A stretch of DNA of 41,235 nt from a virus: positions 1-41,235 of IMG/VR virus record IMGVR_UViG_3300049448_000045; one strand, written 5' to 3'. Positions 22,289 through 39,763 of this stretch are shown piece after piece (the stretch's first letter is position 1; each line of letters begins with the position of its first letter). The notes beneath the pieces are model-generated. The model saw only the letters and a program-made list of their open reading frames with translations, searched no databases and was not told the DNA's origin. A program made the position numbers and the translations under genes.

Positions 22289-23632
22289 ATGCCCGGATGG
22301 GATGGCAGCGGTGGCTTCACCAGAGTCTACAGTTGGGTCGCGGATGCGCTCGCTGGCATCAATATCACTGCGTCCCGCATGGACGCGGATACCGACAACA
22401 TCACGAATAACGGCTTCAATAACTGCCTGACCCGTGACGGGCAGGGCTCTGCCACAAACGATCTGCCGATGAACAACTTCCGGCATACGGGTGTGGGAGA
22501 TGCGAGCGAAGCCGATGAATATACGCCTGTAGGTCAGCTTCAGTCCAATGTTTTCCTGTTTGCGATTGCGGCTGGAACGGGCGATGCGATCACGGCTTCT
22601 TACTCGCCTGCCATTGATACGCTCACGGACGGTATGCAGCTTTCCTTCCGTGTTCTGGCAGCAAACACCGCAACCGATCCGACATTCAAGCCCAACACGG
22701 CCACGACGCACCAGATCAAGAAGCTGGGCGGTCAAAGTCTGGCCGTTGGCGATCTTGTCGCAAACATGGAAGCCCTTGTCCGCTTCGATGAGGCAGAGGG
22801 AAAGTGGGAGCTTCTAAACCCCGTTACGACCACGGGGCAGTCTCAGTTGCCTTGGGCGGTTGCTGGCGGGTCAGCCGATGCGATTACCGCAACGTATTCG
22901 CCAGCAAATCCCGCCCTCACAGATGGATTGCTTCTCAGCTTTCGTGCCTCTGCGGCCAATGCCACGACCACGCCAACATTCGAACCCGATGGCCTAACCG
23001 CACATACGATCACCAAGAACGGCGGCGTTGCACTCGTAGTAGGCGATATTCCCGGCAACAGAGCGGAAGAACTTGTCCGCTACAATCTAAGCCAGACGCG
23101 GTGGGAATTGCTCAATCCGGCGAATCCGGTTGTGCAGCCTGTCATTCTTCTGTCCGGAAGTGTCTCGACGGGAACGGTTTCCGCGCTTCAAATCGACTTC
23201 TCGACCTTCACTGCGTACAAGCGGTTCGAACTCAGCATCGACAATCTGGTCATGTCGTCATCTGCGCTTGGCGTGGTGGTTCAATACTCCGTCAACGGCG
23301 GAAGCAGCTATATCACATCGAATACTTACTCGATTTCGTCTCAGCTTTTCGATGGAGTTTCGACGTATTCCGAGAGTGCAGCGGTAGGTGTTATCAATAT
23401 TCTGAATACGGGCCTCTCGGCTGCGAATACGAGCTTCGTCATCAACCTGACCGGCATCAATCAGGCGCTTAACACGCTGCTTATTGCCGATGCTGTTTAC
23501 TACAACGGTACTGTTACGAGGCGGCAGAGTTCGGTGGGGGTTAACTCCACGAACACCATCAACGGCATCAAGGTTTTCCTAACGGGAGGCACTGTCACGT
23601 CCGGCAGGTATCGTCTTGTGGGCTATGTCTGA
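22289..23632 (+). CDS. Tail fibre protein with a tandem repeat module
   Basis: A 447-residue protein. Residues about 8-40 ('GGFTRVYSWVADALAGINIT' then 'SRMDADTDNI') match the N-terminal segment by which many podovirus tail fibres attach to the virion. Two copies of an about 87-residue module follow (about 94-179 and 191-278), each with 'DAITxxYSPA', 'LTDGxxLSFR', 'PTFxP' and ending in 'WELLNP'. The C-terminal 165 residues are beta-rich and probably receptor-facing or trimerising. The stop overlaps the next gene by one base, and the fibre/spike genes follow in series. Confidence 0.75.
   Translation: MPGWDGSGGFTRVYSWVADALAGINITASRMDADTDNITNNGFNNCLTRDGQGSATNDLPMNNFRHTGVGDASEADEYTPVGQLQSNVFLFAIAAGTGDAITASYSPAIDTLTDGMQLSFRVLAANTATDPTFKPNTATTHQIKKLGGQSLAVGDLVANMEALVRFDEAEGKWELLNPVTTTGQSQLPWAVAGGSADAITATYSPANPALTDGLLLSFRASAANATTTPTFEPDGLTAHTITKNGGVALVVGDIPGNRAEELVRYNLSQTRWELLNPANPVVQPVILLSGSVSTGTVSALQIDFSTFTAYKRFELSIDNLVMSSSALGVVVQYSVNGGSSYITSNTYSISSQLFDGVSTYSESAAVGVINILNTGLSAANTSFVINLTGINQALNTLLIADAVYYNGTVTRRQSSVGVNSTNTINGIKVFLTGGTVTSGRYRLVGYV
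22568..23122 (+). repeat. Tandem duplication of a fibre module
   Basis: Residues about 94-179 and 191-278 of the tail fibre share GDAITASYSPA/ADAITATYSPA, LTDGMQLSFR/LTDGLLLSFR and KWELLNP/RWELLNP at the same offsets. This is an ancient in-frame duplication; nucleotide identity between copies is partial by eye. Confidence 0.65.
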
Positions 23633-24273
23633 TGGCGCTGAATATCGAGCAATGGATGTCTCAGGGTTTGCCTGCCGCTCTCTCCGTAGAGATGCAGAAG
23701 AACCTTGGCGGCACATTGCGCACCGATATGTCTGGTGGAAATCATCTCGTCACCGTTCCGGACGAAGATCAGAACTTGCGCCATGTTCTGACGGGGGCTT
23801 TGTCCGTAGCCAGAACGTACACATTCCCTGCCGTTAGTGGCTTCTATTTTGTCGATAATCAGACCACGGGCGGCAAGGCTACAACGCTTGCGGTCACGGG
23901 CGGTTCAACGACAGTCCAGATTTACAGCGGTCAGCAGATCATCATCTTCGTGGACGGCGTTCTTGCCACGCTTGAGCCCTTCAGTGCTACGAGCGTCACC
24001 GTCAATATCGTCCATGCGGATTCGACCTACACCGTCCCTGCGAACGTGAATTTCATCACGGCGGATACGTCTGCCGGATCAATCAATGTAATTCTGCCCG
24101 CAGCCATTTCCTATCCGAGCCGAAGCATCGGGATTGTGAAAACAGCGGATGCAAACGCGGTCGTGATTACGAGCGCAGGGGGCCAGATCGGCGGGACAAA
24201 TACTTACACGCTTAATGCGAAGGGGGAATCCATTGATGTCAATTCGAATGCGTCAGACTGGTGGATTTTCTAG
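23632..24273 (+). CDS. Tail fibre-associated beta protein (213 aa)
   Basis: Starts MALNIEQWMSQGLPAALSVE, overlapping the fibre stop by one base (TGATG-type). After a short helical head it is all beta: 'TLAVTGGSTTVQIYSGQQII', 'DSTYTVPANVNFITADTSAG', 'GQIGGTNTYTLNAKGES', ending in SDWWIF. This layout fits a fibre tip or small distal fibre subunit. No cysteine, no signal peptide, unlike the three genes that follow. A 12-codon ORF at 24280-24318 bridges to the next gene but is not convincing. Confidence 0.6.
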   Translation: MALNIEQWMSQGLPAALSVEMQKNLGGTLRTDMSGGNHLVTVPDEDQNLRHVLTGALSVARTYTFPAVSGFYFVDNQTTGGKATTLAVTGGSTTVQIYSGQQIIIFVDGVLATLEPFSATSVTVNIVHADSTYTVPANVNFITADTSAGSINVILPAAISYPSRSIGIVKTADANAVVITSAGGQIGGTNTYTLNAKGESIDVNSNASDWWIF

Positions 24274-24315: not shown

Positions 24316-24948
24316 ATGAGAAAATATCTCTCCTATGCGAGCTTTTTAGCTCTCATACTGGCTGTGAGTCCGGTTTATGCGGCGGGGTATGTCTCCATCG
24401 CGGACCCGACCAATCCTAGCTATGTGGCGGGCGTCGATAGCTCTGGAAACCTGAAAACCACGGGCTCTGTAGGAACGGTTACGACCGTCACCACGATCAC
24501 CAATCCCGTTGGAGTGAAGGGGGCGGACGGCTCTACGATTTCCAGTACGGCAAACCCATTTCCAACAGAACCCGCAAGCGCCGACCCATGCCAGACAACG
24601 GCGGGAACGCCTACGCCGATCAGCATTACAACCGCGACGACAACGAGAATTGTAGCGCCGACTTCTGCGAAGAAAACATACATCTGCTATCTGTTTGTGA
24701 CTTCCGCAGCAGCAGACAATGTTGGAATCGTAGAGGGAACGGGTGGGACGTGCGGCTCTGGCACAGCGGGCGTTATAGGCGGCACCACGGCAGCAAATGG
24801 CCCGAACTTTCCGGCTAACGGCGGCATGTCGCTTGGCGGCGGCGGATTCTTTATCGCCGCTACAGCAGGGACAAATGTCGATCTGTGTTTGATTACGTCA
24901 GCGGCAACGCCGCTCGCCGGAGTGATTAAGTGGGTTCAAGCCCCATGA
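24316..24948 (+). CDS. Predicted secreted beta protein with signal peptide
   Basis: Residues 1-23 (MRKYLSYASFLALILAVSPV then YAA) have a basic n-region, a hydrophobic core and a VYA cleavage site: a classical Sec signal peptide. The 210-residue precursor then has low-complexity Thr/Val repeats ('SVGTVTTVTTITNPVG') and a Gly/Thr-rich beta domain with four or more cysteines ('DPCQTT', 'YICYLF', 'GGTCGSG', 'VDLCLI'). Similar small domains occur in tail-adjacent phage proteins. The leader would send it to the periplasm, unusual for a tail gene. The stop overlaps the next ATG. Confidence 0.65.
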   Translation: MRKYLSYASFLALILAVSPVYAAGYVSIADPTNPSYVAGVDSSGNLKTTGSVGTVTTVTTITNPVGVKGADGSTISSTANPFPTEPASADPCQTTAGTPTPISITTATTTRIVAPTSAKKTYICYLFVTSAAADNVGIVEGTGGTCGSGTAGVIGGTTAANGPNFPANGGMSLGGGGFFIAATAGTNVDLCLITSAATPLAGVIKWVQAP

Positions 24949-26318
24949 TGAAACGGCTTCTTGGTCTTGCTACTGCTTTTCTGCTTGTAGTTTCACCCGC
25001 TTGGGCGGGGATAATCTACGCGGATAATGCTGGCAACGCAGCCTATAGTGGCTCTACAGACACGGCATCTCCAACAATCAGCGGCAGCACTGCCACGGTT
25101 TCCGGCGCGACGGTTATTCTCGATGCCGGGACTGTTCTGACGGCGCTTAATTGCGTGGATGGCTCTGCCACGCAGTCCGCGATCTTCCTCACAAGCGCCT
25201 CAAACTCAAATCAAAAAATCTTCTGGTGTACGTCAAGCTCTGGCTCTGGCGGGGCAACGCCGACTCTCGGCTTATCCGTCACACCGACATGCGCGGCAAA
25301 TGCCTGCGGTGCGTGGAATGTAGGCGGAAGGCATCTTGCCGTGATGGCAGATGCGGCGCTTGAAGCAACTATCCGGTCAGGGGATATTCTACAATACAAT
25401 AATGATGTCGCGACGGCCAATGCCGTTGGCTTCACATGCCGCACGGCGAACGCTACGGGCGTGCCTGCGATCATTCGTGGCAAGGCGGGGGTTTATCCCA
25501 AACTGGAAGCCACCGGCACAACGAATGTCATTGCGTGTGCGCAGAACAATTACATCTTCCAAGGTCTGACCATCCGAGGAGATGGAGCTTCTGGCGTAGC
25601 CATGGCCCTGACCGGGAACAACATTGAGGTCATAGACAATAAGTTCACCCGCGCTGGCGGAACTTGCATCACGGATGGGCAGACGCTCATTGCAATCCTC
25701 AATGACATCACCGGATGCTTGGGCGATGGAATCAATCTGACATCTTCACAGCATTCTCTCTTTGCGAACTACATCCATGCCGTTGGCGGGGACTGTGCAG
25801 AGGACTCAGCCACGACGCCTAGTCTTGTTGCTGAGTTCAACATCTTCTCGCTCTGCGGAGCGCGCGGCTTGTATCTCTCAGGCTCTCCGGGCTCGCCCGC
25901 TACGCAGCTTGCGCGTATTGTCAACAATACGTTTTATAAGAGTGTGAACTCCGGGTTGGAGATTGTCTCGGCAAACACACCCTTCATCCTGTTCAATAAT
26001 CTCTTCTTGGACAATGCGACGACATCGGGGGCGAATATCCTTGGTGGCGCTGCGCTGACGTATGGCCCTTATGGCTATAACATCATCTTCCAGAGCGGCG
26101 GCAACACCAACGTCACGAATTACACGCTGGCATCGACAGACCTTGCGGTCAATCCGGGGCTGACTAACCCAGCATCAGGTGACTTCACTCTCACGTCTAG
26201 CTCTGCCGCCCGTGGAACCGGAACGCCGGGGACGTTACTGAATAGCAGCACCGGGTATCTCTCGATTGGTGCAATCCAGCCAGCATTGACTGGTGGCGGA
26301 CATATCATAGGCGGATGA
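24945..26318 (+). CDS. Exported parallel beta-helix protein (tail spike-like)
   Basis: ATG 24945 overlaps the preceding stop; the upstream GTG 24930 is less likely. Residues 1-20 (MMKRLLGLATAFLLVVSPAW) plus AG form a signal peptide ending AWA|G. The remainder has about eight right-handed beta-helix coils: 'NNYIFQGLTIRGDGASGVAM', 'NNIEVIDNKFTRAGGTCITD', 'DGINLTSSQHSLFANYIHAV' and 'LARIVNNTFYKSVNSGLEIV', the pectate-lyase/NosD type of repeat. The protein has paired cysteines. No polysaccharide-lyase catalytic residue can be named from sequence alone. It probably binds or cleaves a glycan. Confidence 0.75.
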   Translation: MMKRLLGLATAFLLVVSPAWAGIIYADNAGNAAYSGSTDTASPTISGSTATVSGATVILDAGTVLTALNCVDGSATQSAIFLTSASNSNQKIFWCTSSSGSGGATPTLGLSVTPTCAANACGAWNVGGRHLAVMADAALEATIRSGDILQYNNDVATANAVGFTCRTANATGVPAIIRGKAGVYPKLEATGTTNVIACAQNNYIFQGLTIRGDGASGVAMALTGNNIEVIDNKFTRAGGTCITDGQTLIAILNDITGCLGDGINLTSSQHSLFANYIHAVGGDCAEDSATTPSLVAEFNIFSLCGARGLYLSGSPGSPATQLARIVNNTFYKSVNSGLEIVSANTPFILFNNLFLDNATTSGANILGGAALTYGPYGYNIIFQSGGNTNVTNYTLASTDLAVNPGLTNPASGDFTLTSSSAARGTGTPGTLLNSSTGYLSIGAIQPALTGGGHIIGG

Positions 26319-28813
26319 TGCTCATAAAAAACATCTTCGCTGGTCTTGTTATAGCAGTATTGGCTGCTGTTCCCGGCTTTGCTGCCAATCAACCCGGCGC
26401 TGTTGTCCAGCTTGCCAATGCAGCGGTTCTTGCCTCCAGCGACTACAGCAACACGCCGCAAATCTCTCTAAGCGGTTACTATACCGCGAACGATGGCGGA
26501 GAGGGTATTTTCGTCAAGACAACTTGCACACCCGATGGCGGCGCGTGTCTGGCGGACAATGCAGGCAATCATTATCTCAGAACAAATCTGAATGGGAAAC
26601 TCGCCCAATACGGTATTACCCTTGGTTCGGCCTATGACTGGTCCGTTCATGGTGTATCCGCTACCGACGCAACGCCCATTATCGAAGCGGCACAGACGGC
26701 CAATGCTCTTGCTGGCGTTCCAACAACGCATTGCGGGGCGATGCAGATTTACCTCGCAACCAATCTTGTCCTCGCGGCCAATTCTTCCTTCACATGCGAT
26801 GTAAACCCCGGCATTACGAACGATAGCACGGGATATGTAAGCCTTCCCGGAACGATACGTCTTGCGCATGGCGTGACGATCACGCGGGCGGGAGATTCCT
26901 CTGCGTTCTACGGCGCATATGTCTTGCCCTATTGGTACACGACCGCACTCAGTAGCGCGCAGACCGGCTTTGCTGCGCTCACAAGCATGGTATCCAATGG
27001 GGACACGGGGGTTATCTGCAATCAGCAATCCTGCGGCGATCACGACCTGACAATTCTTGGCTTCGATACGGGCTATGAGTACATCAACGCCCCGAATCTC
27101 GTAACGAACAACATCAACATTGACGCCAATGTTTGTCTCTGGGCCGATACGACGGGCGGCAATTCCAACAATCAGAATATGGTCTGCTTTCCATATCTGA
27201 CGCGCTCTGTTCCGACAACCAAGCGCAAGCAGATTTTCACCCTAGGCAAGATTGAGAACGATGGAGGGCTTTGCAAGGTAACGGTAACGCCATCAAGTAC
27301 CGGATCAGACTTGGCCGATCTGGCGTATGCGAACTACATCTATATCGCCAACCTGACCAACACATCTGCCTCCTGCAATGGTCAGTGGGTCATGTCCAAT
27401 CTGAACACGGGAGCGGGGACATTCGATCTTGTCGGCTCTGCGGCTCTTGGACCTTCCGCTTATTCCCATTGGGCGGCTGGAACCAAGATCGTCTATACGG
27501 CTAGCGATACGAATATCGCGGCTGGCAATGTCATCAACGGCCTTGACGCTCAGGGTATACCGACTGGAACCACAGTCGCGTATGTCTGGAACCTGCCTTA
27601 TCACAGTGCGGGCTATGTTGCCTCTACAGGATCGGCCAATGCCTATGCGCTAGACCAAGGCGCAATTGCTCCCTGCACGCTTGATTCCGGGCAGGATGTC
27701 TATTGGCAACCGAACTTCAGCAATACAGCCGCAGCGACATTCAATCTAACTCTTAATTCCGGAACGGGATGCACGGGCGGAACAACCGGCCCCTATTCCA
27801 TCCTGCGTGCTGACGGAACGGCATTACAGGCAAACGATATTATTTCCGGCGCTCACCTCTACATGAAATATGATGGGACGACGCATTGGCTTCTACAGCA
27901 GCCAAAGGTCGTTCTCAGCGCCAATACGACGCTCGCACAGACCGCTCCAATCAGCGTCACCTATACCAACGCGGTATGCTCAAGCTGCGGTATCAATGCT
28001 CAGGCAGAGTTCACGGTAGCCTCTCGCGTCGATGCGGGCGGAAGCGCAGGCGGCATCGCTGCGGGCGGGACTGGTAATGCTACAGGCGTTCATGTTGGCG
28101 GACCGGCTGCAAAGGGACTTCCTGTCAGCGACAAGGTTGCGGGCTTCACCTGTACGGACTGCTTTGTCTACGACCACACGATGTTTTTCCATGTCGAGAA
28201 CTCGAATGAAACGAAGCTTCAGGACATTCGCACGGATTCCGAAGGCAGCACGGATAATGCAAACCAATATATCCTCGTAGCCGATGGACAGGTAAACAAT
28301 ATCCACTGGAACGGCATCAAGGCTGCGAAGGGTGGAACTGCCCTCCTCATAAACATCAACTACCCGAACAATTCAGATCGTGGCTGCGTGACATGGACGG
28401 GAGCTAGCGTTGCCTCAACGGCGGGAACGTATCCCGTGGTCGATGTAGAGCAAGGCTGTTGGCGTATGTTGAACGGTGTTGCCAACAGCAATGGCGTTAA
28501 CTTCATCGCCAACAATGCGCTTCAGGCACGCTTCGATGTCTACATGCCGAACACGACCATGATCTATGAGGGCGCGGATGCTGAAGCGGCAACGTGTACG
28601 GTGGGCTCTGTTCTCGCTGGTGGGTATGTGTGCCCGACACTGACGGGTCCAGCTACCACATATTCTACGCTTCCGGTCTGCACGTCTGCGATCAAGGGCC
28701 AAAGAGCCTTCATAACCGATGCAGACAATACCGCATTCCTGTTCCCGGTCTTGGGGGGTGGCGCTTTCAATGTTCCTGTTCTGTGTGACGGAACGAATTG
28801 GGTAGTGGGCTGA
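26315..28813 (+). CDS. Large exported spike-type protein
   Basis: An 832-residue protein whose ATG overlaps the preceding stop (ATGA). Residues 1-24 (MMLIKNIFAGLVIAVLAAVP then GFA) form a signal peptide with cleavage GFA|A. The mature part has an N-terminal head-like segment ('GYYTANDGGEGIFVKTTC'), a beta-rich middle and a C-terminal region with many Gly/Thr/Asn repeats. Cysteines come in close pairs ('CTPDGGACLAD', 'CSSCG', 'CTVGSVLAGGYVCPTL'), consistent with disulfides. Gene order makes it a receptor-binding or polysaccharide-degrading spike. The catalytic site is not identified. Confidence 0.65.
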   Translation: MMLIKNIFAGLVIAVLAAVPGFAANQPGAVVQLANAAVLASSDYSNTPQISLSGYYTANDGGEGIFVKTTCTPDGGACLADNAGNHYLRTNLNGKLAQYGITLGSAYDWSVHGVSATDATPIIEAAQTANALAGVPTTHCGAMQIYLATNLVLAANSSFTCDVNPGITNDSTGYVSLPGTIRLAHGVTITRAGDSSAFYGAYVLPYWYTTALSSAQTGFAALTSMVSNGDTGVICNQQSCGDHDLTILGFDTGYEYINAPNLVTNNINIDANVCLWADTTGGNSNNQNMVCFPYLTRSVPTTKRKQIFTLGKIENDGGLCKVTVTPSSTGSDLADLAYANYIYIANLTNTSASCNGQWVMSNLNTGAGTFDLVGSAALGPSAYSHWAAGTKIVYTASDTNIAAGNVINGLDAQGIPTGTTVAYVWNLPYHSAGYVASTGSANAYALDQGAIAPCTLDSGQDVYWQPNFSNTAAATFNLTLNSGTGCTGGTTGPYSILRADGTALQANDIISGAHLYMKYDGTTHWLLQQPKVVLSANTTLAQTAPISVTYTNAVCSSCGINAQAEFTVASRVDAGGSAGGIAAGGTGNATGVHVGGPAAKGLPVSDKVAGFTCTDCFVYDHTMFFHVENSNETKLQDIRTDSEGSTDNANQYILVADGQVNNIHWNGIKAAKGGTALLININYPNNSDRGCVTWTGASVASTAGTYPVVDVEQGCWRMLNGVANSNGVNFIANNALQARFDVYMPNTTMIYEGADAEAATCTVGSVLAGGYVCPTLTGPATTYSTLPVCTSAIKGQRAFITDADNTAFLFPVLGGGAFNVPVLCDGTNWVVG

Positions 28814-31395
28814 TGGCAGCGGGCAATCTCTACAACATCGGACTGTTCTCCAACATCGGTTCTGTGAACATACCGTCTTTCATAGATTATGTTGTGACAG
28901 AGGGATATTCGGTCGCTGGACTAGGGGCTGCGACTTACGCTGTCACGGCGACTACCGGCGCTACGGCATACCGCAAACAATCCTCCGATGGCCGCTGGTG
29001 GCAGATTGATGTCAACCAGCTTTATCCGGCTATGGTAGGGGCACTCGGTGATGGCGTTACGGACGATGCAGCAGCTTATCAGGCGGCACTTAATTACGGG
29101 GCTGGTTCTCCGGGATCGGTTTTCGGCGGCAGACTTATCGGCTCTATCGCTAGTCCTCTTATCATTCCGAATGGCGTTCGCCTTGAAGGTCTTGGAGGGC
29201 AGCAAAGCGCGTCCGGCCTTAAGCTTCTATCGACGTTCCCGCATACAACGATCAATGGCGATCAGACGCTTCCCTATGCTGCGTTCTCATCGACGTTCAC
29301 GCTCAATGTCGCATCTACGGCAGGCTTTCCTCTAGGCTCTGGAGGGATAACCCCTGCCGGTGGCGTTGGCGTTCTTGTCTGCAAAGAGCGGACGATTCTC
29401 TACACCGGAACAACGTCTACGTCTTTCACCGGATGCTGGACAGTTCCTTGCGATATTGGCGTTACGCTTGCCAATGGGTCTGCGATTTCAACGCCTGCTG
29501 TTTGGTTGACCGGACCCGGAGATGGGCAAGTCGGATTCAGCACGCGCATTGATGGGTTCTCCATAGACTGTAACGATGTTGCGGGCAGCGCATGTCTCTG
29601 GACCTCGCATCTTCAGGAAGGCGGCGGATGGTCGGACATGCTATTCAAGGCATTCCGCAACTATGGCTTCCGTGCCGATCAGGCGTATGCGTTTGGTCCT
29701 ACGGCGGCACAATGCAACGATTGGGACGGGAAAGATTACTGGTGTACGACTTCGGATAACGCCGAATCTGAGTGCGTTGACATCCATATCGCTCTTATCT
29801 GGCCTCCGGGCGGGGTTAAAACTCCGCAGCAGGATTATGGCCTTCGCAACGGTAGCCACGTTGTCATGCACAACGGAGGGCCGAACGGGACTGCAATTCG
29901 TATTGATGGGTGTGTCGGCAATTACGGTCCTTTCCACATGGAAAGCAAGAACCGTGGCATTGTCATTGGCGAATATAGCAGATGCAGCGTTGTTCTCTCA
30001 GGCTACACGATTTCAAATTCGTGGAGCAATAGCGGCGGGGCTGGTGTCGATCTAGGAGCAGCTTACGGCAATTCCGCCTTCGTTATGAACGGCATCAAGG
30101 CGGATGCTATCGACGTTGCAAACCGCGTTATTCTGAATGACCAGAATGTCGGGGCTGTTGCTGCTTCGCAAAAACTTACCTCAAGCGCGAACTATGCCGA
30201 TGGCGATACGATTTCGATTGGCAGACTTGGCACAACGGCAAAGGTCTACACGCTTCAAACGACACTGACGAATGTGGATGGCAATATCCATATTGCAGCG
30301 ACCGAGGCGCAGACGCTTACCAACATCGCCAACGCCATCAATGCAAGCGGCGGAACGGCTGGCACTGACTACGCCACGGCAATGACGCCTCATCCCAATG
30401 TGTTCGGTACATCGGACGGGCAGCATATTGTCACCGCCACAGCCCTTATAAAGGGCACTGCAGCCAATGCAGTTACCACGACCGAGACATCAGGAACGGC
30501 ATCGTGGGGCGAGGCTACGCTTGCTGGAGGCGTTGCAGGAAGTCTCTCGCAGACGCTGGAGCAGATTCAGGAATATCGCCTGTTCGCGGACGGGTCCAGC
30601 CAGATCAATGGCGGCGCTCGCTACGGGCTCTATGCAAATAGACCGTCTGCCAATTCCTCTGGAATGTCAGGGGCTCTTTGGGGCTCGACCGATCTTGGCC
30701 GCTTCAATTTGGCAATGAACAATCGGTGGTACGGCATCAATCTTGATCCGGGCATTACTCTCGTCTCGGATTCTCTCGTCACTGGCGCTCTTGATGGCGG
30801 ATCATCTTCAACGCAGGTCTTTACCTTCGCCAAGACAACCACAATAGGCAATCACGTTATCATTGCGATCACGGCAGCGCCGGACAAGGTTGTAACGGGC
30901 ATCGTGGATTCGGCTGGCAACGTCTATCAGGTCGATGTCACCAAATCCGGTCAAGGCCCTGCGGTCAGTATTTGCTCCTCTCATATCACGGTAGGCAATT
31001 CCATCAGCGATACGCTCACGGCTACGCTAAGCGGGACATGCAATTATATCTGCGGTCAGGCAACGCAATGGAGCGGATTAAAGGCTTCAGGTTGGGCCGA
31101 TGTGACGAACACGAACAATGGTTCGACGGGTAGCGGCGCGATCAATCCGACAACGGTAAACACGGTCCCGGACGTTCTCTGGTACGGTGCCGTCGCCTTC
31201 ACGGATAGCTCTTACCGCACGGCTGGGACAGGATTTACCGCCTTGACGGGTGCGCTTAGCGGCGCTGGCAATCGCCGCGTCTCGCCTATCTACAAGATCA
31301 GTTCCGACTTCGATACCGGAGGCATTACATGGGGTGGAGGGTCTAACGGATGGGATGCAGGAGTTGTGAAGTATAAGGCTGCGTCTGCGTCATGA
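28813..31395 (+). CDS. Pectate-lyase-superfamily tail spike
   Basis: ATG 28813 shares a base with the previous stop (TGATG) and is preferred over TTG 28798. The 860-residue product has the classic spike start: 'FIDYVVTEGYSVAGLGAATY', 'DGRWWQIDVNQLYPAMVGAL', then 'GDGVTDDAAAYQAALNYG' (about 82-99), the conserved pectate-lyase_3 N-terminal motif. A beta-helix with cysteines follows, then a C-terminal jelly-roll-like domain ('DSLVTGALDGGSSSTQVF', 'GNHVIIAITAAPDKVVTGIV'). Unlike the three genes before it there is no signal peptide. Likely a receptor-binding depolymerase. Confidence 0.8.
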   Translation: MAAGNLYNIGLFSNIGSVNIPSFIDYVVTEGYSVAGLGAATYAVTATTGATAYRKQSSDGRWWQIDVNQLYPAMVGALGDGVTDDAAAYQAALNYGAGSPGSVFGGRLIGSIASPLIIPNGVRLEGLGGQQSASGLKLLSTFPHTTINGDQTLPYAAFSSTFTLNVASTAGFPLGSGGITPAGGVGVLVCKERTILYTGTTSTSFTGCWTVPCDIGVTLANGSAISTPAVWLTGPGDGQVGFSTRIDGFSIDCNDVAGSACLWTSHLQEGGGWSDMLFKAFRNYGFRADQAYAFGPTAAQCNDWDGKDYWCTTSDNAESECVDIHIALIWPPGGVKTPQQDYGLRNGSHVVMHNGGPNGTAIRIDGCVGNYGPFHMESKNRGIVIGEYSRCSVVLSGYTISNSWSNSGGAGVDLGAAYGNSAFVMNGIKADAIDVANRVILNDQNVGAVAASQKLTSSANYADGDTISIGRLGTTAKVYTLQTTLTNVDGNIHIAATEAQTLTNIANAINASGGTAGTDYATAMTPHPNVFGTSDGQHIVTATALIKGTAANAVTTTETSGTASWGEATLAGGVAGSLSQTLEQIQEYRLFADGSSQINGGARYGLYANRPSANSSGMSGALWGSTDLGRFNLAMNNRWYGINLDPGITLVSDSLVTGALDGGSSSTQVFTFAKTTTIGNHVIIAITAAPDKVVTGIVDSAGNVYQVDVTKSGQGPAVSICSSHITVGNSISDTLTATLSGTCNYICGQATQWSGLKASGWADVTNTNNGSTGSGAINPTTVNTVPDVLWYGAVAFTDSSYRTAGTGFTALTGALSGAGNRRVSPIYKISSDFDTGGITWGGGSNGWDAGVVKYKAASAS

Positions 31396-33026: not shown

Positions 33027-33542
33027 ATGCGTAGATATAAAGAACTTCTCAAACCTGAGACTCTTAGATCACTTCTCTCTTACGATCCAGAAAGTGGTGA
33101 TTTTAAGTGGATAGAAAAGAGATTTAATGGAGCCGATTCTGGACAAAGCGCAGGCTCTATAAACCGATACGGATATCGGAGGATTTGCGTTTTTGGGTCT
33201 TATTATACCGCCCACAGGCTTGCATGGTTATTACACTATGGCGTTGAACCTAAGGGCTCTCTAGATCACATAAACGGCGTTCGATCTGATAACCGTATAG
33301 CCAATCTTAGAGAGGCAACTAATTCTCAAAATGGCTACAACATGTCTCTTTCATCTGCCAGCAAGTCTGGGGTGAAAGGCGTTAGATTTTACTGCAGAGC
33401 TGGCAGAAAAGATAAATGGTCTGCGAGAATCATGGTTCAAGGAGAGTCTATATTCTTAGGCTTATTTGATACTCTTGAAGAAGCAAAATCTGCGAGATTA
33501 TGCGCCGCTGAAAAATATCATGGAGAATTTGCGAGGCCGTAA
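33027..33542 (+). CDS. HNH homing endonuclease with AP2 domain
   Basis: A 171-residue protein. 'AHRLAWLLHYG' (about 62-72) and 'LDHINGVRSDNRIANLREAT' (79-98) form the HNH/NUMOD4-like catalytic core, with H63 and the D80-H81-N83 cluster. Residues about 112-168 ('SGVKGVRFYCRAGRKDKWSA', 'FLGLFDTLEEAKSARLCAAE') are an AP2 DNA-binding domain. Such free-standing genes spread into phage genomes by cutting intronless or geneless alleles. The coding DNA looks more A/T-rich than its neighbours (by eye), a sign of transfer. It interrupts the stretch between the membrane-protein genes and the endolysin. Confidence 0.85.
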   Translation: MRRYKELLKPETLRSLLSYDPESGDFKWIEKRFNGADSGQSAGSINRYGYRRICVFGSYYTAHRLAWLLHYGVEPKGSLDHINGVRSDNRIANLREATNSQNGYNMSLSSASKSGVKGVRFYCRAGRKDKWSARIMVQGESIFLGLFDTLEEAKSARLCAAEKYHGEFARP

Positions 33543-33586: not shown

Positions 33587-34102
33587 ATGAATTGGCCGAC
33601 TACCGATGCTGATTTAATCCGGCAGGTCATCCTCTACAATGAGGGCGGCTATGTGAACAATCCGGCAGACAAAGGCGGCCCAACTCACTACGGGATTACC
33701 CAAGATACGCTCGCATCATGGCGCGGCCACCCCGTCACGGTCGATGACGTAAAGAATCTCCCGATGGCCGAGGCTATCTCAATCTACGAGAAGCGTTACA
33801 TCGTAGACCCGAACTTCATCCTCATATCCGATATAAAGTTGCGCACAGCCCTTGTAGATGCTGCCGTGCTGTTTGGCCCTCAGACTGTAATCAAGGCTCT
33901 ACAGGGCATTCTAGGGGTCAAGGCGGACGGTGTTCTTGGAAACGATACTGCGGCAGCGGCGGGACGGCTTGAAGCAAGGGGGCTAATCAATTCCCTCTCT
34001 GTCTGGCGAGTTACGCGCCATGCTTCAAGAGTAGACGCGGACCATTCCCAGATAGTGTTCTTGAAGGGCTGGATGGCTAGGGCGACGAGCTTTATTGTCT
34101 AA
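33587..34102 (+). CDS. Endolysin, GH108-type muramidase
   Basis: A 171-residue protein. Residues 14-37 (VILYNEGGYVNNPADKGGPT then HYGIT) carry the GH108/zliS signature E-G-G-Y-x-N-x-x-D-x-G-G-x-T-x-x-G-I-T with catalytic Glu19. The C-terminal part ('ALVDAAVLFGPQTVIKALQG' through 'VWRVTRHASR') matches the PG_binding_3 region of the same family. It cleaves the glycan strands of peptidoglycan; there is no signal peptide, so it needs a holin or pinholin. Its stop overlaps by four bases with the convergent small membrane gene of the minus-strand module. Confidence 0.85.
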   Translation: MNWPTTDADLIRQVILYNEGGYVNNPADKGGPTHYGITQDTLASWRGHPVTVDDVKNLPMAEAISIYEKRYIVDPNFILISDIKLRTALVDAAVLFGPQTVIKALQGILGVKADGVLGNDTAAAAGRLEARGLINSLSVWRVTRHASRVDADHSQIVFLKGWMARATSFIV

Positions 34103-34358: not shown

Positions 34359-35186
34359 CTAAAGTGTCGGGAACAGAGACTTAATCTCGTTTACTGTCGG
34401 GATAAACGCAACCATGTGCTCCACGTCTTTATGCCACGCCAGATCGCGCTCAATCAGGTCAATCGTCTGTTGAATACGAGCCCCCCGAACAGGATTACCG
34501 TGTACGTCCTTGTCGCGGCCTAGAAGAAGGATTGTATCCGCGATCATAACGGCGCTCTCAATGTCATGCGTCGAGAAGATGATGGTGTTTAGCTCGTCTC
34601 TGGCCGCTACGTTGTCGATCATATCGCAGACGACTTTCTTCATGATGATGTCAAGCCCTGAAAATGGCTCGTCCATGAGCAGGAAGTGGCTGCTGGATAG
34701 TAGCTGCTCTGCGATGGATACACGCTGTCGCTGGCCACCGGAAAGCTGCTGAGGATAGAAATGGCGCTTGTCGGCCAGTCCGAAGTCGCTCAAGACCTGA
34801 TAGGCTTTGGCCTTCGCTTTTGCGGCGTCCTTTTCTTGCCGTCCTGCCGCTAGTAAGAGCGTGCTTTCAATCGTGCGATGCTCAAAGAGAAGGTAATTCT
34901 GAGGGACAACGCCGACCATACCAGCTTTGACCGGCTTCTGATCTGGACCGATTGCGACTGTTCCCGATGTTGGCGCGGAGAGTCCAGATAGCCTGCGGAA
35001 TAACTGAGTCTTTCCCATTCCGCTTGGTGCCAGAAGCGCCACCTTTTGGCCTTGTGTCAGTCCAGTACGCTTAATATCCCGTATCTCAAAACTCACATCA
35101 TGCAGGATCGGGAAATCGTATGAGACGGAAAGACCCGTAACCTTGAGCAGCAATTCGTCTTTTACATATTGGAACTCGGACGACAT
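34359..35186 (-). CDS. ABC transporter ATP-binding protein
   Basis: ATG 35186 shares a base with the permease stop; the frame is open upstream (to 35219) only inside the permease gene. All ABC ATPase motifs are present in 275 residues: Walker A 'LLAPSGMGKTQL' (51-62, first Gly replaced by Ala), Q-loop 'VVPQNYLLF' (93-101), signature LSGGQRQR (148-155), Walker B 'HFLLMDEPF' (167-175), D-loop 'SGLD' and H-loop 'IFSTHD' (203-208). The type is the NitT/TauT import family, in keeping with the neighbouring permease. It would power the transport system encoded by this operon from the cytoplasm. Confidence 0.9.
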   Translation of the reverse strand: MSSEFQYVKDELLLKVTGLSVSYDFPILHDVSFEIRDIKRTGLTQGQKVALLAPSGMGKTQLFRRLSGLSAPTSGTVAIGPDQKPVKAGMVGVVPQNYLLFEHRTIESTLLLAAGRQEKDAAKAKAKAYQVLSDFGLADKRHFYPQQLSGGQRQRVSIAEQLLSSSHFLLMDEPFSGLDIIMKKVVCDMIDNVAARDELNTIIFSTHDIESAVMIADTILLLGRDKDVHGNPVRGARIQQTIDLIERDLAWHKDVEHMVAFIPTVNEIKSLFPTL

Positions 35187-35959
35187 TAGAGAGCCTTTCC
35201 AAGTCTTGCGTATGGACAAGCGATGTAGTTCTTGAACGCGCCGAGCAGGAAGTCTTGCAGCATACCAACGGCAAATAGGGAAATCAGGATTGCCGCCTCT
35301 GCGGAGAGGTCCATGTGACGGTTCATGTTGATTAGGACAACGCCTATCCCTCCTTCCGAGCGCACAACGCCTTCAACCATCGTAAGCATCATCCAGCCCA
35401 TGGCTGCGTTGACGCGGAGAGATTCCAAGGCATCCGCGAGAGTGCCCAGAATAACCACTTCCCAGATGACACGGAACTGAGAAAGGCCAAGTGTGCGGGC
35501 ATGATCGTACTGTTCTTCCGGGATATTGCGGACGACATGAATCATATCGCGGAGATAAAACACCGTCATTCCGAACGTGAGAACCATAACCTTGAGGGCA
35601 TGGCCTGTTGGAGCGAGCAAGGTGAACGCCAGCATCAACCCGACTAGGCCCAAGTATCGAAGCCCTGTAATGAATTGAACCAGAGGGCGCATTGCTGGAA
35701 GTACAGACAGATAAGCGAGAAACAGCGAGAGTGCGACGGTCCACAAGATGGATTCCGCCATGGTTTCTAGGCTTGTTCCAAACTCTAGGAACGTGCCTTG
35801 CTGTCTAAGTGTCTCGAATGAGGAAAGAACCTCCATCGGCTTTGGCAGGAATTGAATGTCTGAGAATTGCCAGAATAGGAAGGCGGCAACGCCCCATGCC
35901 AGAGAGATATACAATCTTCCTTGGCGTGAAACGTTGCCGTTGGGGAGAAGTGCGTTCAT
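35186..35959 (-). CDS. ABC transporter permease (NitT/TauT-like)
   Basis: A 257-residue inner-membrane protein with about six hydrophobic helices ('YISLAWGVAAFLFWQF', 'ILWTVALSLFLAYLSVLP', 'LGLVGLMLAFTLLAP', 'ALKVMVLTFGMTVFYL', 'AAMGWMMLTMVEG', 'AILISLFAVGMLQDFLLGAF'). Residues about 149-181 ('EEQYDHARTLGLSQFRVIWE' onward) are the EAA loop that docks with the ATPase. The BPD_transp_1 fold and order are typical of taurine/nitrate/thiamine-precursor importers. ATGA overlap with the 50-residue peptide gene upstream (35956-35959) and a one-base overlap with the ATPase downstream. No partner permease, so a homodimer is likely. Confidence 0.85.
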   Translation of the reverse strand: MNALLPNGNVSRQGRLYISLAWGVAAFLFWQFSDIQFLPKPMEVLSSFETLRQQGTFLEFGTSLETMAESILWTVALSLFLAYLSVLPAMRPLVQFITGLRYLGLVGLMLAFTLLAPTGHALKVMVLTFGMTVFYLRDMIHVVRNIPEEQYDHARTLGLSQFRVIWEVVILGTLADALESLRVNAAMGWMMLTMVEGVVRSEGGIGVVLINMNRHMDLSAEAAILISLFAVGMLQDFLLGAFKNYIACPYARLGKAL

Positions 35960-36108
35960 TTACGGAGCCCAAAGAGCCTCTGAATGCGGTGTTTGACATT
36001 CTCTACAAGGATCAAGATTCCGAGCCCCGCAAATATGAGCGCAATGATACCCCAGACGATAAGTCCGAGAATGTCATGTACGCTCCAGACCACGAACATA
36101 TGCGGCAT
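35956..36108 (-). CDS. Single-TM 50-residue peptide
   Basis: Start ATG at 36108, with 'tggaga' as ribosome site in the end of the preceding gene. The stop overlaps the permease start (ATGA). The product is MPHMFVVWSVHDILGLIVWG followed by IIALIFAGLGILILVENVKH and a basic C-terminus (RIQRLFGLRK). It has one long hydrophobic helix and a positive tail, so it probably spans the inner membrane with the C-terminus inside. A small subunit or regulator of the transporter is plausible; no family known. Confidence 0.6.
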   Translation of the reverse strand: MPHMFVVWSVHDILGLIVWGIIALIFAGLGILILVENVKHRIQRLFGLRK

Positions 36109-36110
36109 TG

Positions 36111-36305
36111 CTATCTCCAGAGTTCACGATTGAAGACAGCCTTGAAGCCATCATTCATGGCCTTTGCCATCTTCTCCATCTCCTCCGCAATCTTGTCGCG
36201 ATTGTCTTTGGACGGCCACACAGTCTTTTTGGGAGTTTCCGTTGTCTGCGTTTGGAGCGCGATGTGTTCTCCGCAATGCGGACATTCGATCAGAGATTCT
36301 TTCAT
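36111..36305 (-). CDS. CPHC-type small protein (64 aa)
   Basis: Starts MKESLIECPHCGEHIALQTQ. Cys8 and Cys11 form one CPHC pair (a second pair is missing, so a zinc site would need a dimer or His14). The rest is a charged amphipathic helix ('SKDNRDKIAEEMEKMAKAMN'). Located two bases ahead of the one-TM peptide and five after the OmpA-fusion gene, so it is part of the operon. The CPHC could alternatively be a redox motif, as in thioredoxin-like proteins, but the fold is absent. Confidence 0.6.
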   Translation of the reverse strand: MKESLIECPHCGEHIALQTQTTETPKKTVWPSKDNRDKIAEEMEKMAKAMNDGFKAVFNRELWR

Positions 36306-36314
36306 GGCTTTCTC

Positions 36315-38084
36315 CTATTGACCAAGGGTGATTTCGACACGGCGATTCTGCGCCTTGCACGCCGCCGTATCATTCGAGGCGCACACGGGCATATCCTGAC
36401 CATGGCCGACAATTTCAAGGCGGGAGGCAGGGAAGTTTGCGGGTGCCTTTGATGTCAGCCAGTTTGCCACCGCCGCTGCACGCTGTTGAGAGAGCGCAAC
36501 ATTGGCCTGTGGGTTGCCAGTATTATCCGTATACCCATCGAGACGAAGGCGCAGATTTGTCATAACCGCTGTGTCCTCAATCTGCGTAAGAACGGCAATC
36601 GAGGATGCCTTGACCGTGGCGCTGCCAGAATTGAACTCAATATGCCATGCGCGCTTCGATACTGTCTGCGTAATTGGGGCCGCAGAGGCGTATTGCGGAG
36701 CCGCCACACCCTGAGCTTCAGGAACGCCCTGTAGTGCATCGGTTAGGTAAGACAGGTCCACAACGTCATCATAGGCCGGGATAGAGCCGCTACCTGACTT
36801 GGGGTAGTCAGTCGGGTAGAATGCCTCGTCATAGCCTTTGAACACACGGTAGACGGAGGCAAAGATGTTCTCTGTTCCTGAGCGGATGCCGAAGTAATCG
36901 CGCGCCTCTTGTAGCGTGATTACTTTTGACCCTCCAAGAGAGACTTCTTCGCCAAGGCGGTTATGCCCGATTTCGCCCTTGAAGTAACGAGCCCAATAGG
37001 AAGCGTCCTGTTCATGGAAAATCTGGGCATGGATGCCGCCCATATCCATGAGAGCCGCGCTGCTGGTACGGATCAGGATTGCGCCACGATCTGCAGCCTT
37101 CAGAAGCCCGACAACATAGTCATGGTGAGACTGCATCCAGCTTTTGACGCCGATAATCAGTGTCGGCATCTGACCTGCATAATCATGCGTAGAAGCAACA
37201 CCGACAATAGAGCCGTCGAACTTGCTAACCACGTCTACGTCGCCCGGTGTCCATGTCGCTACACCGTTGACACAGACCTTCTTTGTGCCGTGCGTAATAC
37301 CGTGAGACACGACTAGGCGGTCTTCGCAGGCGTGAGAGATAAGTTTCTCGTCAGCCGTGGTGAATGCGTCAACGTCCATGAAGTTGATGGCGTCTGCATC
37401 GTAGGTTTTCTGATCGGTATTGATTGGAATACCGTTGTCCGATGCCCACTTGACACAGATGTTCCAGTCACCGTCACGGGGAACGGCAGCTACAAGAACG
37501 CCCTTGGCCTTCTTCGGGTCTTTCTGTGCATCGGATGGCATCATGCACTTGTCCTCACCATCGGAAAACCCGATCACGCCGATAGCGGCGAACTGACCCG
37601 GAATTAGCTTCTGGAGGGCCGCTGCCACATAGGGGTATCCATCCCCCATGATGGTAAAGAAAGCGTCTCCACGGGCACCGTTGGACGTTACGAACGCGGC
37701 CATATTGGCTTCCATCTGCCCGTAGTCATCCTGACGCTTGATCGTTAGGCATCCGTTGCCAGTGTACTTCTCGACAAGCGAGCCGCGAGACGTGGAAGAC
37801 CCGCCGTTGGCGATGGTGAGCCCACCATGCGCGTTCCACGCCAGAACTTCCATAACCGGACAGTCAGTCATGTTCGCAGGCTGAGCGGTGACGGGAAGTG
37901 GGTATGCCGTGGTGTGATCTGCCACGGTAAAATGCTGGATGGTTGTGGCGACTGGAACCGCAGAGACAGTCTGAGCGGGTTTTCCGATCAGGCCGGTCAT
38001 AACTGCCAGCTTGGCCCCTCCCCATAGAACGCCGACACCTACCACGGCGATAACTGCAAATCCTGCGCGCGTAATCTTGGCCAT
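36315..38084 (-). CDS. Substrate-binding protein fused to OmpA domain
   Basis: A 589-residue envelope protein with a good ribosome site (gaggagag). Residues about 7-32 ('AGFAVIAVVGVGVLWGGAKL') are a signal or membrane anchor. The middle (about 75-450) looks like a periplasmic type-2 substrate-binding protein of the NitT/TauT or phosphate kind ('WNAHGGLTIANGGSSTSRGS', 'MDVDAFTTADEKLISHACED', 'DVVSKFDGSIVGVASTHDYA'). Residues 480-589 are a complete OmpA-like peptidoglycan-binding domain: 'WHIEFNSGSATVKASS', 'LDGYTDNTGNPQANVALSQQ', 'VGHGQ' and 'NRRVEITLG'. It would hold the binding protein on the cell wall while feeding the permease. Cysteines in the exported part suggest disulfides. Confidence 0.85.
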   Translation of the reverse strand: MAKITRAGFAVIAVVGVGVLWGGAKLAVMTGLIGKPAQTVSAVPVATTIQHFTVADHTTAYPLPVTAQPANMTDCPVMEVLAWNAHGGLTIANGGSSTSRGSLVEKYTGNGCLTIKRQDDYGQMEANMAAFVTSNGARGDAFFTIMGDGYPYVAAALQKLIPGQFAAIGVIGFSDGEDKCMMPSDAQKDPKKAKGVLVAAVPRDGDWNICVKWASDNGIPINTDQKTYDADAINFMDVDAFTTADEKLISHACEDRLVVSHGITHGTKKVCVNGVATWTPGDVDVVSKFDGSIVGVASTHDYAGQMPTLIIGVKSWMQSHHDYVVGLLKAADRGAILIRTSSAALMDMGGIHAQIFHEQDASYWARYFKGEIGHNRLGEEVSLGGSKVITLQEARDYFGIRSGTENIFASVYRVFKGYDEAFYPTDYPKSGSGSIPAYDDVVDLSYLTDALQGVPEAQGVAAPQYASAAPITQTVSKRAWHIEFNSGSATVKASSIAVLTQIEDTAVMTNLRLRLDGYTDNTGNPQANVALSQQRAAAVANWLTSKAPANFPASRLEIVGHGQDMPVCASNDTAACKAQNRRVEITLGQ

Positions 38085-38101
38085 TTTCTCTCTCCTCAGA
38101 T

Positions 38102-39130
38102 TTAATGGATCAGGCCGGACAAAACATTTGCCGGGTCTGGTTGACTGGTGGACGCAAACGAAGCGGGCGAAGGCAAAGCCGTTGCCTGCGTAGACTGGAT
38201 AAGCTTCGTGCCTGTCGTCTGGACCTGTTGAAGCATGTCCTCATTGAAAGAGGCGTTCTCCACGTCGATGGATTGCAGGAACGGCTCTGCGAATTTCTTG
38301 AGGTGATCCAGATGGCCAAGCTCCGCGCCGTACTTATCATCAATGACGGACTCTGCCTGTTCTGCATCGGCCCATACTTGGGTCTTGGTACGGCCAAGGA
38401 TGCGGCTTGCGGAACCTACCGCTGCATTAACCGCCTTCTGCGTCTCCCATTTATCCTTGAGAAGATCGCGCTCGATTTCCAGTTTCTGCGCCGTGATGTC
38501 TGCCGCTTGCGAGATTTTCTGGAATGTCGCGCGTGCAGGTTCAAGGCGTGCGGCTGTGGCATCATAGGAAGCCGCAATATCCTTGTACGATCCGAACTTG
38601 TGAGCCGCAACGTCCTGCGCGCCAGTCGCGCCAGTCTTGGCAGCAGCAATGCCGAACCTTTGAGCTTTCAGGCTGGCATCGCGATACTTTGCAGCCTTGT
38701 CGTGCAAGCTGGAAATAAGGCCGTCTAGCTTCTCGAATTGTGCCTCGAATGTCACCTGATCGGCGCGCACTGAATTGATGCGCGTTGTGATCGGAGAAAG
38801 AGGGTCAATCGTGATAAAGAACCTTGTGAGGCCGTTGACGATTGACCAATACGGCAGGCGCAGAAGATGGTTGATACTGCCGTTTGCGCTAAGCGTCTCG
38901 CGTGCCAGCCACAAAGCGACGACCAAGCCAACGCCGGAAGCGACGGTATAGATGCTGTTTTCCAAGATGGTGTTGAGCAGGGTTAGTGCCGTAACCATCG
39001 TGGGTGCGACCGCATTGAAAGCGATGACAGCGCCGAGGATGATTGCAGCGCCGCCACCATATTTGACGACTTTCTGCATGACCTGAGATTCAGGCGGTGT
39101 CCATGGCTGAGAGACAAGATCGTTCGACAT
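38102..39130 (-). CDS. Two-TM coiled-coil membrane protein (342 aa)
   Basis: Residues about 25-52 ('GGGAAIILGAVIAFNAVAPT' and on) and 58-77 ('NSIYTVASGVGLVVALWLAR') are transmembrane helices. From about 115 to 250 it is a long cytoplasmic alpha-helical region ('TRINSVRADQVTFEAQFEKL', 'ATFQKISQAADITAQKLEIE', 'RDLLKDKWETQKAVNAAVGS') consistent with a coiled coil; the C-terminus is Gln/Thr/Ser-rich. It is the third gene of the leftward operon. No family is recognised; it may connect the transporter to the cytoplasmic coiled-coil protein encoded just before it. Confidence 0.65.
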   Translation of the reverse strand: MSNDLVSQPWTPPESQVMQKVVKYGGGAAIILGAVIAFNAVAPTMVTALTLLNTILENSIYTVASGVGLVVALWLARETLSANGSINHLLRLPYWSIVNGLTRFFITIDPLSPITTRINSVRADQVTFEAQFEKLDGLISSLHDKAAKYRDASLKAQRFGIAAAKTGATGAQDVAAHKFGSYKDIAASYDATAARLEPARATFQKISQAADITAQKLEIERDLLKDKWETQKAVNAAVGSASRILGRTKTQVWADAEQAESVIDDKYGAELGHLDHLKKFAEPFLQSIDVENASFNEDMLQQVQTTGTKLIQSTQATALPSPASFASTSQPDPANVLSGLIH

Positions 39131-39139
39131 GATTAGCCC

Positions 39140-39763
39140 TTATGAGATTGAGGAAAGGAGTTGTTTAGCCTGTAGAAGCGGGGCGCTTAGCTGATCTTCA
39201 ATGAGTTTGAAGCGGGCAGAACCATCGCTAATAGCCTTCTCTGCATCGTGGGCCGCTTGCGTTAGTTGCGAGATGCGGGCCGTGCGTTCTGCGATCTGCT
39301 GCTGTGCCGCTACGTTCTGCGCCGTGAGATTGGCCATCTCTTGCGTAGGCCCGTCAATGCGTGCCGCCCGCGCTTGTCCTAGCTGACCATCAAATTCAGA
39401 CTTCTTGGAAGCGATGATGCTAAGATGCGCGTCAATGTCGGCCAGCACTTTCTCAGCCGTCACGCCGGGATTGGCAGCGGCCAGAACATTGAACACGGTC
39501 TTGAGGTCTGAGGTATTGCCAAGAGTCTCGCGAACGCGCTGGAATGTTTTGTAGCTTGACGGGATAGCGTACACTTGCGCTTCCAAAGCCTTGAGACGTT
39601 CTGTATCTTCTGGGCCAAGGGTAGTAGTCGTGTAATTGGCGGCGGGTGTGTATGCAGGCATCGGAGGAACATCAACGCCGGGATGCATGTTCCGAACGAC
39701 TGGCTCTTGGCTCGCAACTGGATCGTCGCTTTCCATAAGGCCCATTTTTTGTAGAAGGCTCAT
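39140..39763 (-). CDS. Soluble coiled-coil protein (207 aa)
   Basis: Starts MSLLQKMGLMESDDPVASQE. The first 60 residues are Pro/Thr-rich and disordered. Residues about 60-200 are predicted helical ('EDTERLKALEAQVYAIPSSY', 'AEKVLADIDAHLSIIASKKS', 'ERTARISQLTQAAHDAEKAI'). Its start overlaps the stop of the ribbon-helix-helix gene (ATGA, 39760-39763). It has no membrane helix and may assemble with the 342-residue membrane protein next to it. PspA-like or TelA-like helical proteins come to mind, but no signature supports either. Confidence 0.65.
   Translation of the reverse strand: MSLLQKMGLMESDDPVASQEPVVRNMHPGVDVPPMPAYTPAANYTTTTLGPEDTERLKALEAQVYAIPSSYKTFQRVRETLGNTSDLKTVFNVLAAANPGVTAEKVLADIDAHLSIIASKKSEFDGQLGQARAARIDGPTQEMANLTAQNVAAQQQIAERTARISQLTQAAHDAEKAISDGSARFKLIEDQLSAPLLQAKQLLSSIS

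Follow-up and report, generated by a model that had tools for sequence, protein, structure and literature searches.

Putatively exported proteins with spike or fibre modules

The usual assumption is that phages produce and assemble their tail fibres and spikes in the cytoplasm.

A tailspike-type fold with an export signal is known from bacteria. As described in the accessible portions of its source (PMC7949094), Pantoea WceF is a cellular exported enzyme, a trimeric right-handed beta-helix of the tailspike type which carries a Tat signal peptide and acts on exopolysaccharide. The Bdellovibrio MAT fibre proteins, according to the available text (PMC10769870), are exported adhesins in which phage-fibre-like modules (S74, TNF-like) stand behind a signal peptide. 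Among phage proteins, the SP-endolysins, such as fOg44 Lys44 (PMC6116005) and the UFJF_PfDIW6 endolysin (PMC8951688), are exported by the host Sec system by means of a leader, as far as the available sections of both sources go. In the accessible portions of the open-licence full-text literature, no description was found of phage spike and fibre proteins with signal peptides as a class.

Here, three consecutive tail-region genes of a virus record are described whose products, P0001, P0002 and P0003, are probably detached spikes, that is, exported, oxidatively folded and soluble proteins acting on envelope glycans, as judged from sequence comparisons.

The three-gene cassette and its surroundings

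The window, meaning the whole stretch of DNA analysed, is a 41,235-base virus record. Its gene order matches that of Myxococcus phage Mx8 (terminase, portal, major head protein, tail protein, amidase-like protein, acyltransferase and virion proteins). In the reading given above, the cassette probably belongs to the late tail operon of a podovirus like Mx8. The features of this region are as follows.

22289..23632, + strand: tail-fibre-like protein without leader, 447 aa, 1 Cys; N-terminal 84 residues resemble the phrog_13989 virion structural protein (E 2.3e-15)
23632..24273, + strand: small fibre-like protein without leader, 213 aa, 0 Cys; from ORF and composition, with no PHROG match
24316..24948, + strand: P0001, leader-bearing fibre-module protein, 210 aa, 4 Cys; from the leader and a middle segment common to P0004 of contig L002
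24316..24381, + strand: predicted P0001 Sec-type leader, 22 aa, cut after VYA; score 4.86
24496..24564, + strand: P0001 segment common to P0004, ITNPVGVKGADGS...NPFP
24945..26318, + strand: P0002, leader-bearing right-handed beta-helix protein, 457 aa, 10 Cys; Pfam Beta_helix
24945..25007, + strand: predicted P0002 Sec-type leader, 21 aa, cut after AWA; score 5.15
26315..28813, + strand: P0003, leader-bearing spike-like protein, 832 aa, 22 Cys; called spike-like from size, composition and place
26315..26383, + strand: predicted P0003 Sec-type leader, 23 aa, cut after GFA; score passes, weakest by shuffling
28813..31395, + strand: spike-like protein without leader, 860 aa, 13 Cys (an odd count); overlaps P0003 at its start

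P0002 probably starts at 24945, a longer GTG ORF at 24930 being less likely. The P0001 and P0002 genes overlap by 4 bases, as do those of P0002 and P0003, and the start of the next spike gene overlaps the end of P0003, an arrangement which fits one co-translated late cassette.

This arrangement bears on the possibility that the products are moron-like, i.e., cell-surface or periplasmic proteins altering the infected cell by superinfection exclusion or lysogenic conversion. Leaders would permit action before lysis and the gene order resembles that of the temperate phage Mx8, but the overlaps among the genes and with the next spike gene make late expression the simplest assumption. Moreover, promoter- and terminator-like sites round the cassette were not above shuffles in a scan that phage-specific promoters would escape, and a promoter and terminator of its own are thus not seen. 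Neither an integrase nor a repressor was identified in the window, some small ORFs of which lay outside the scan. We consider a moron-like role quite improbable.

P0002 matches Pfam Beta_helix above the cut-off (E 2.6e-8) and DUF5123 below it (E 3.1e-6). P0001 and P0003 have no family match in PHROG or Pfam, and sequence searches of the PDB yielded nothing useful, with no match for P0003; single-sequence AlphaFold models of P0002 and P0003 reached pLDDT values of 34 and 33, too low to be informative. A relationship between P0003 and the spike at 28813 was considered and dropped, similarity being undetectable. The N-termini of P0001-P0003 match no docking-domain family in PHROG or Pfam, scans which a divergent domain could escape, and no muralytic domain was found in these proteins with the same collections. 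The likely endolysin of the window lies elsewhere, at 33587 (GH108); beside it, 33027-33542 encodes an HNH endonuclease that matches AP2 weakly and is likely a homing endonuclease. Two further regions of the window are recorded as side observations. The ends of a 665-aa protein (10652-12649) match one family of phage glycosyltransferases and one of DNA methyltransferases, and a minus-strand block (34359-39763) encoding an ABC transporter ATPase, a permease and an OmpA-domain protein, with unshifted GC content, is either host flank or phage cargo.

Predicted export leaders of the cassette proteins

The predicted leaders and cuts are MRKYLSYASFLALILAVSPVYA before A in P0001, MMKRLLGLATAFLLVVSPAWA before G in P0002 and MMLIKNIFAGLVIAVLAAVPGFA before A in P0003. 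Each has a positive n-region, a 9-residue core with a mean hydropathy of 2.8-3.3 and a cut site, VYA, AWA and GFA, respectively. With n-, h- and c-regions and a small-residue cleavage motif all present, strong predicted Sec/signal-peptidase-I leaders are confirmed in all three, and the original prediction, which had placed leaders with these sites at 24316, 24945 and 26315, is borne out by both score and start positions.

Leaders were called with a home-made score at a threshold of 4.0. When the score was calibrated on 86 E. coli K-12 CDS, 11 passed, all of them exported proteins or lipoproteins as far as annotated or otherwise known; none of the passing proteins was cytoplasmic or an ordinary inner-membrane protein. 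Export or a lipoprotein nature was expected for 14 of the E. coli proteins, of which 10 passed, three scored 3.4-3.5 and one was missed. The 82 loci and the window together have 1193 ORFs, of which 19 pass, and the cassette supplies three of these.

Chance or an annotation artefact is hardly tenable as an explanation. Hydrophobic starts are common, and when residues 2-35 were shuffled, passes per 20000 numbered 238 for P0001, 546 for P0002 and 1860 for P0003 (9%), so that the predicted leader of P0003, taken alone, is the weakest of the three. Against chance stand three leaders in a row, the calibrated score and the recurrence described below.

Recurrence in divergent viruses

P0001 and P0004, a protein encoded on viral contig L002, have in common a 27-residue stretch with 81% identity. 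On this contig, the leader-bearing P0004 is followed by a second leader-bearing gene and then by a leaderless pectate-lyase-like spike. Three scans traced the C-terminal module of P0004 to 35 viral contigs. The module is not clearly present in P0001, which is tied to this family by the middle segment only. A search of 84,980 prokaryote genomes did not find it, and it is thus not a copied host gene visible to such a scan. The 35 contigs fall into 27 clusters at 90% module identity, 26 of which are readable after omission of L086, whose 5' end is cut; L086 had been considered as a leaderless homologue and was dropped because its reading frame is open to the contig end. A leader is present in 25 of the 26 readable clusters. 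The score finds it in 23 of these (>= 4.0 in 22 and 3.5 in L106) and inspection by eye in two (L129 and L155), whereas L104 has none. Leaders are also frequent on adjacent tail-region genes; for instance, L092, L095, L097 and L098 have runs of two or three, and L106 has several.

With phrog_2, a terminase match was obtained in 10 of 29 such records, and with Pfam Terminase_6N in five of 29, the rest showing none with either model; the very different strengths of these matches fit more than one phage lineage. One further contig, L062, was found through its portal rather than through a leader, and it too has leader-bearing tail-region genes, one of them ending in a Peptidase_S74 chaperone domain. 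No leader-bearing tail-region gene was found in six annotated records whose portal or fibre is related (Bradyrhizobium ppBjS10J-1, ctMlz233, Paso, Mx8, RHph_I3_18 and BUCT555), a point against the detached-spike reading. The portal search also supplied 16 long records. In these, the score is passed by 17 ORFs (626 were accepted before the composition filter), among them one adjacent pair, in G016.

Searches of annotated phages found nothing for P0001, P0002, P0003, P0004 or P0006, and P0001 had no match in prokaryote genomes. Three points on the cassette proteins also weigh against the detached-spike reading: P0001 has only the middle segment of the module family, P0002 is without a relative in annotated phages, and P0003 has none there or in viral contigs. 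As a separate observation, the two-cysteine module (alignment A3) matches only three families in PHROGs, one member each of 15, and has no PDB match; it looks like an undescribed phage domain.

Conservation and parity of cysteines

An even number of cysteines marks disulfide-bonded exported proteins. In P0001, P0002 and P0003 the mature count is even, as expected for such proteins, and disulfides are predicted. The original prediction had noted many close cysteine pairs in these proteins, unlike in the fibre and structural proteins just before them. The contrast itself stands (4, 10 and 22 cysteines vs. 1 and 0), but a high cysteine content by itself is no mark of export, since the next spike, at 28813, is leaderless and has 13 cysteines; it is the odd count that sets this spike apart.

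In the P0004 module, two cysteines are kept in all leader-bearing copies found by scans biased to cysteine-bearing relatives, in that one search pattern contains cysteine and the other, TVTTGGT-like, does not. In the leaderless L104 protein, which starts MADNVAITAGSG, both are replaced, and the co-variation of leader and cysteines is based on this one leaderless case.

Parity was then compared between leader-bearing and leaderless families in the pooled tail-region set. Counts omit ORFs with R+H+P+C >= 16% as likely wrong frames (> 17% in the RR scan), ORFs scoring 3 to 4 were placed in neither class, and the first count covers + strand ORFs of 31 sources. The mature count is even in 22 of 23 cysteine-bearing families with a leader vs. 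44 of 99 leaderless ones, the latter class being contaminated by misread starts of leader-bearing genes (L098, 22 Cys; L113, 27 Cys) and by leaders missed by the score (L104, 5 Cys; L142, 7 Cys). With stricter clustering on any similarity, the figures are 21 of 22 and 41 of 83. As parity was noticed post hoc in this first set, the p-values are exploratory (2.9e-6 binomial and 2.6e-6 Fisher; 5.5e-6 and 3.4e-5 for the stricter clusters).

Once parity had been set as a prediction, one new contig, L163, was fetched; its counts are all even, but it is related to the first set. In a held-out set of 16 records chosen by portal, even counts occur in 10 of 13 leader-bearing vs. 132 of 292 leaderless ORFs (p-values 0.046 and 0.024, the latter by the Fisher test), a set that takes in all leader-bearing ORFs of the records, beyond tail genes, and includes a lipoprotein-like ORF (7 Cys) and two possibly false ones beside capsid genes. 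A leader-bearing 804-aa protein of G026 with 11 cysteines is a counter-case. Newly fetched DNA of the same records gave 20 leader-bearing ORFs, 15 of which resemble the first set; three of the other five have cysteines, too few for a replication, one an even number and two an odd number, and the two odd ones sit away from the tail cluster. Among E. coli proteins with a score >= 4.0 and mature cysteines, all five non-lipoproteins have even counts (gfcD, an annotated lipoprotein, was set aside).

A separate feature of the leader families is a glutamine directly after the predicted cut in 17 of 26; this is a possible hint to the host group or to an N-terminal pyroglutamate.

Leaders in place of an N-terminal fibre part

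The Tat consensus consists of an RR motif, a hydrophobic core and a cleavage motif. Leaders starting with RR-x-hydrophobic were seen on a LamG-like fibre module in L099, L100, L102, L103, L105, L107, L108, L110, L111 and L129. Three leaderless counterparts align with the LamG-like protein of L103, namely the tail fibre of Escherichia phage FFH1 (residues 416-813 of 816), an Aeromonas phage protein (residues 121-408) and a Rhizobium phage structural protein (residues 279-506). In L103 itself, the module comes after an RR-type leader of ~20 residues and a short linker. This alignment suggests that, in one related group, the N-terminal part of a virion fibre was swapped for an export signal. Homologues with non-hydrophobic N-termini, which the original prediction had taken to speak against it, do occur, but they are informative: L104 has also lost both cysteines, and the LamG-like fibres of isolates have a long N-terminal part in place of the leader.

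In this LamG-like family of RR-type leaders, an even cysteine count was found in three of nine proteins, which are homologous. The lack of parity would fit Tat export of an already folded protein, and if the RR-type leaders are truly Tat signals, phage spikes would be exported folded.

The same leaders bear on the possibility that the leader stays uncut and fixes the protein in the virion or a membrane as a hydrophobic anchor. Composition alone cannot separate hydrophobic N-termini from anchors, but small-residue cleavage motifs come after the core, leaders of differing sequence, including the Sec and RR types, occupy the same position, and the even mature cysteine counts imply that the proteins traverse an oxidising compartment. 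An anchor is therefore very improbable. It was one of the three options offered by the original prediction; the other two, spikes that are exported for disulfide-bonded folding and enzymes that are released in soluble form, are both supported by the present results and mutually compatible.

Proposed export and role of the proteins

Enzyme and spike-type domains occur in other leader-bearing proteins. A 1275-aa protein of L085 (11175-14999) has GH5, GDSL esterase and GH26 domains and 18 mature cysteines, a protein of L087 (10291-14472) has GH26 and GH5 with 24, and one of L106 (9221-12046) has GH5 with 14. A leader-bearing spike of L062 carries S74 and a leader-bearing protein of L092 has C1q just below the cut-off. 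In the phages examined, leaderless fibre or spike-like genes are present as well, so that the virions have other candidates for these parts.

The leaders, the cysteine parity, the loss of cysteines together with the leader and the enzyme domains would all be explained by export of spike-type proteins which bind or cut glycans. In the detached-spike reading, fibre or spike modules bear a Sec signal peptide at the position taken by the docking part in a virion spike. The cassette proteins would be made late, exported via Sec, cut by signal peptidase I and folded with disulfides in the periplasm; the mature proteins would act outside the cytoplasm, in the periplasm or, after lysis, in the surroundings, and might bind or cut host surface glycans. 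The purpose might be to free progeny from debris, to open the matrix or to remove receptors. A point against this reading is that lysis frees a cytoplasmic enzyme anyway, in which case the need for a leader would lie in disulfides or in action before lysis.

Export by itself is compatible with proteins that stay soluble and with proteins that meet the particle outside the cytoplasm. In the latter case, true virion spikes would be exported first, oxidised in the periplasm and attached to particles as the cell lyses or afterwards, perhaps via the products of 22289 and 23632. The place of the cassette between the fibre genes and the spike of the tail operon, its overlap with the spike gene and the presence of virion-spike-type modules (S74 in L062, the sub-cut-off C1q in L092, and LamG-like modules of isolate tail fibres) favour such loading. 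However, PHROG and Pfam reveal no common docking domain at the mature N-termini, every phage examined also has leaderless fibre or spike-like genes, and some leader-bearing genes encode multi-enzyme proteins. Soluble action is thus the probable course, and late loading is unlikely. Should exported spikes join the particle, tailed-phage morphogenesis would have an extracytoplasmic step that adds disulfide-bonded spikes.

More broadly, and only as a tentative proposal, there may be a class of phage operons which make parallel spike sets, one cytoplasmic for the particle and the other exported, oxidatively folded and either detached or joining outside the cytoplasm; the recurrence of such operons as a class so far unnamed belongs to the same speculative proposal. 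Given widespread spike-module genes with working-looking leaders, a gene annotated as a 'tail-region adhesin' need not encode a virion part, and host-range and depolymerase predictions from leader-bearing tail genes can mislead. There may also be an extracellular glycan programme run by the phages themselves.

Comparison with known systems

As far as the accessible portions of the cited sources extend, the described systems each share part of these features. The soil-virus GH5 endomannanase (PMC6786970) and chitosanase (PMC9485262) are glycan-cutting enzymes, with GH5 as in L085 and L106, but they are described as auxiliary metabolic genes, with no mention of export or disulfides in those portions, and are not tied to tail operons. 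The esterase gp40 of Xanthomonas phage PBR31 (PMC10975493) is encoded by a single gene beside putative spanins, and its authors suggest a possible aid to lysis. The SP-endolysins (PMC6116005, PMC8951688) are muralytic lysis enzymes, whereas the proteins considered here have fibre, spike and glycan-enzyme modules and are encoded in tail regions. The MAT proteins (PMC10769870) are encoded by bacterial genes and have a common 130-aa beta-rich domain directly after the signal peptide, whereas no such common domain was found in the window proteins. WceF (PMC7949094) is alike in joining a tailspike-type beta-helix to an export signal; it is the product of a single gene in a bacterial exopolysaccharide operon and uses Tat, whereas the genes described here lie in phage tail operons, occur several together and bear mostly Sec-type leaders.
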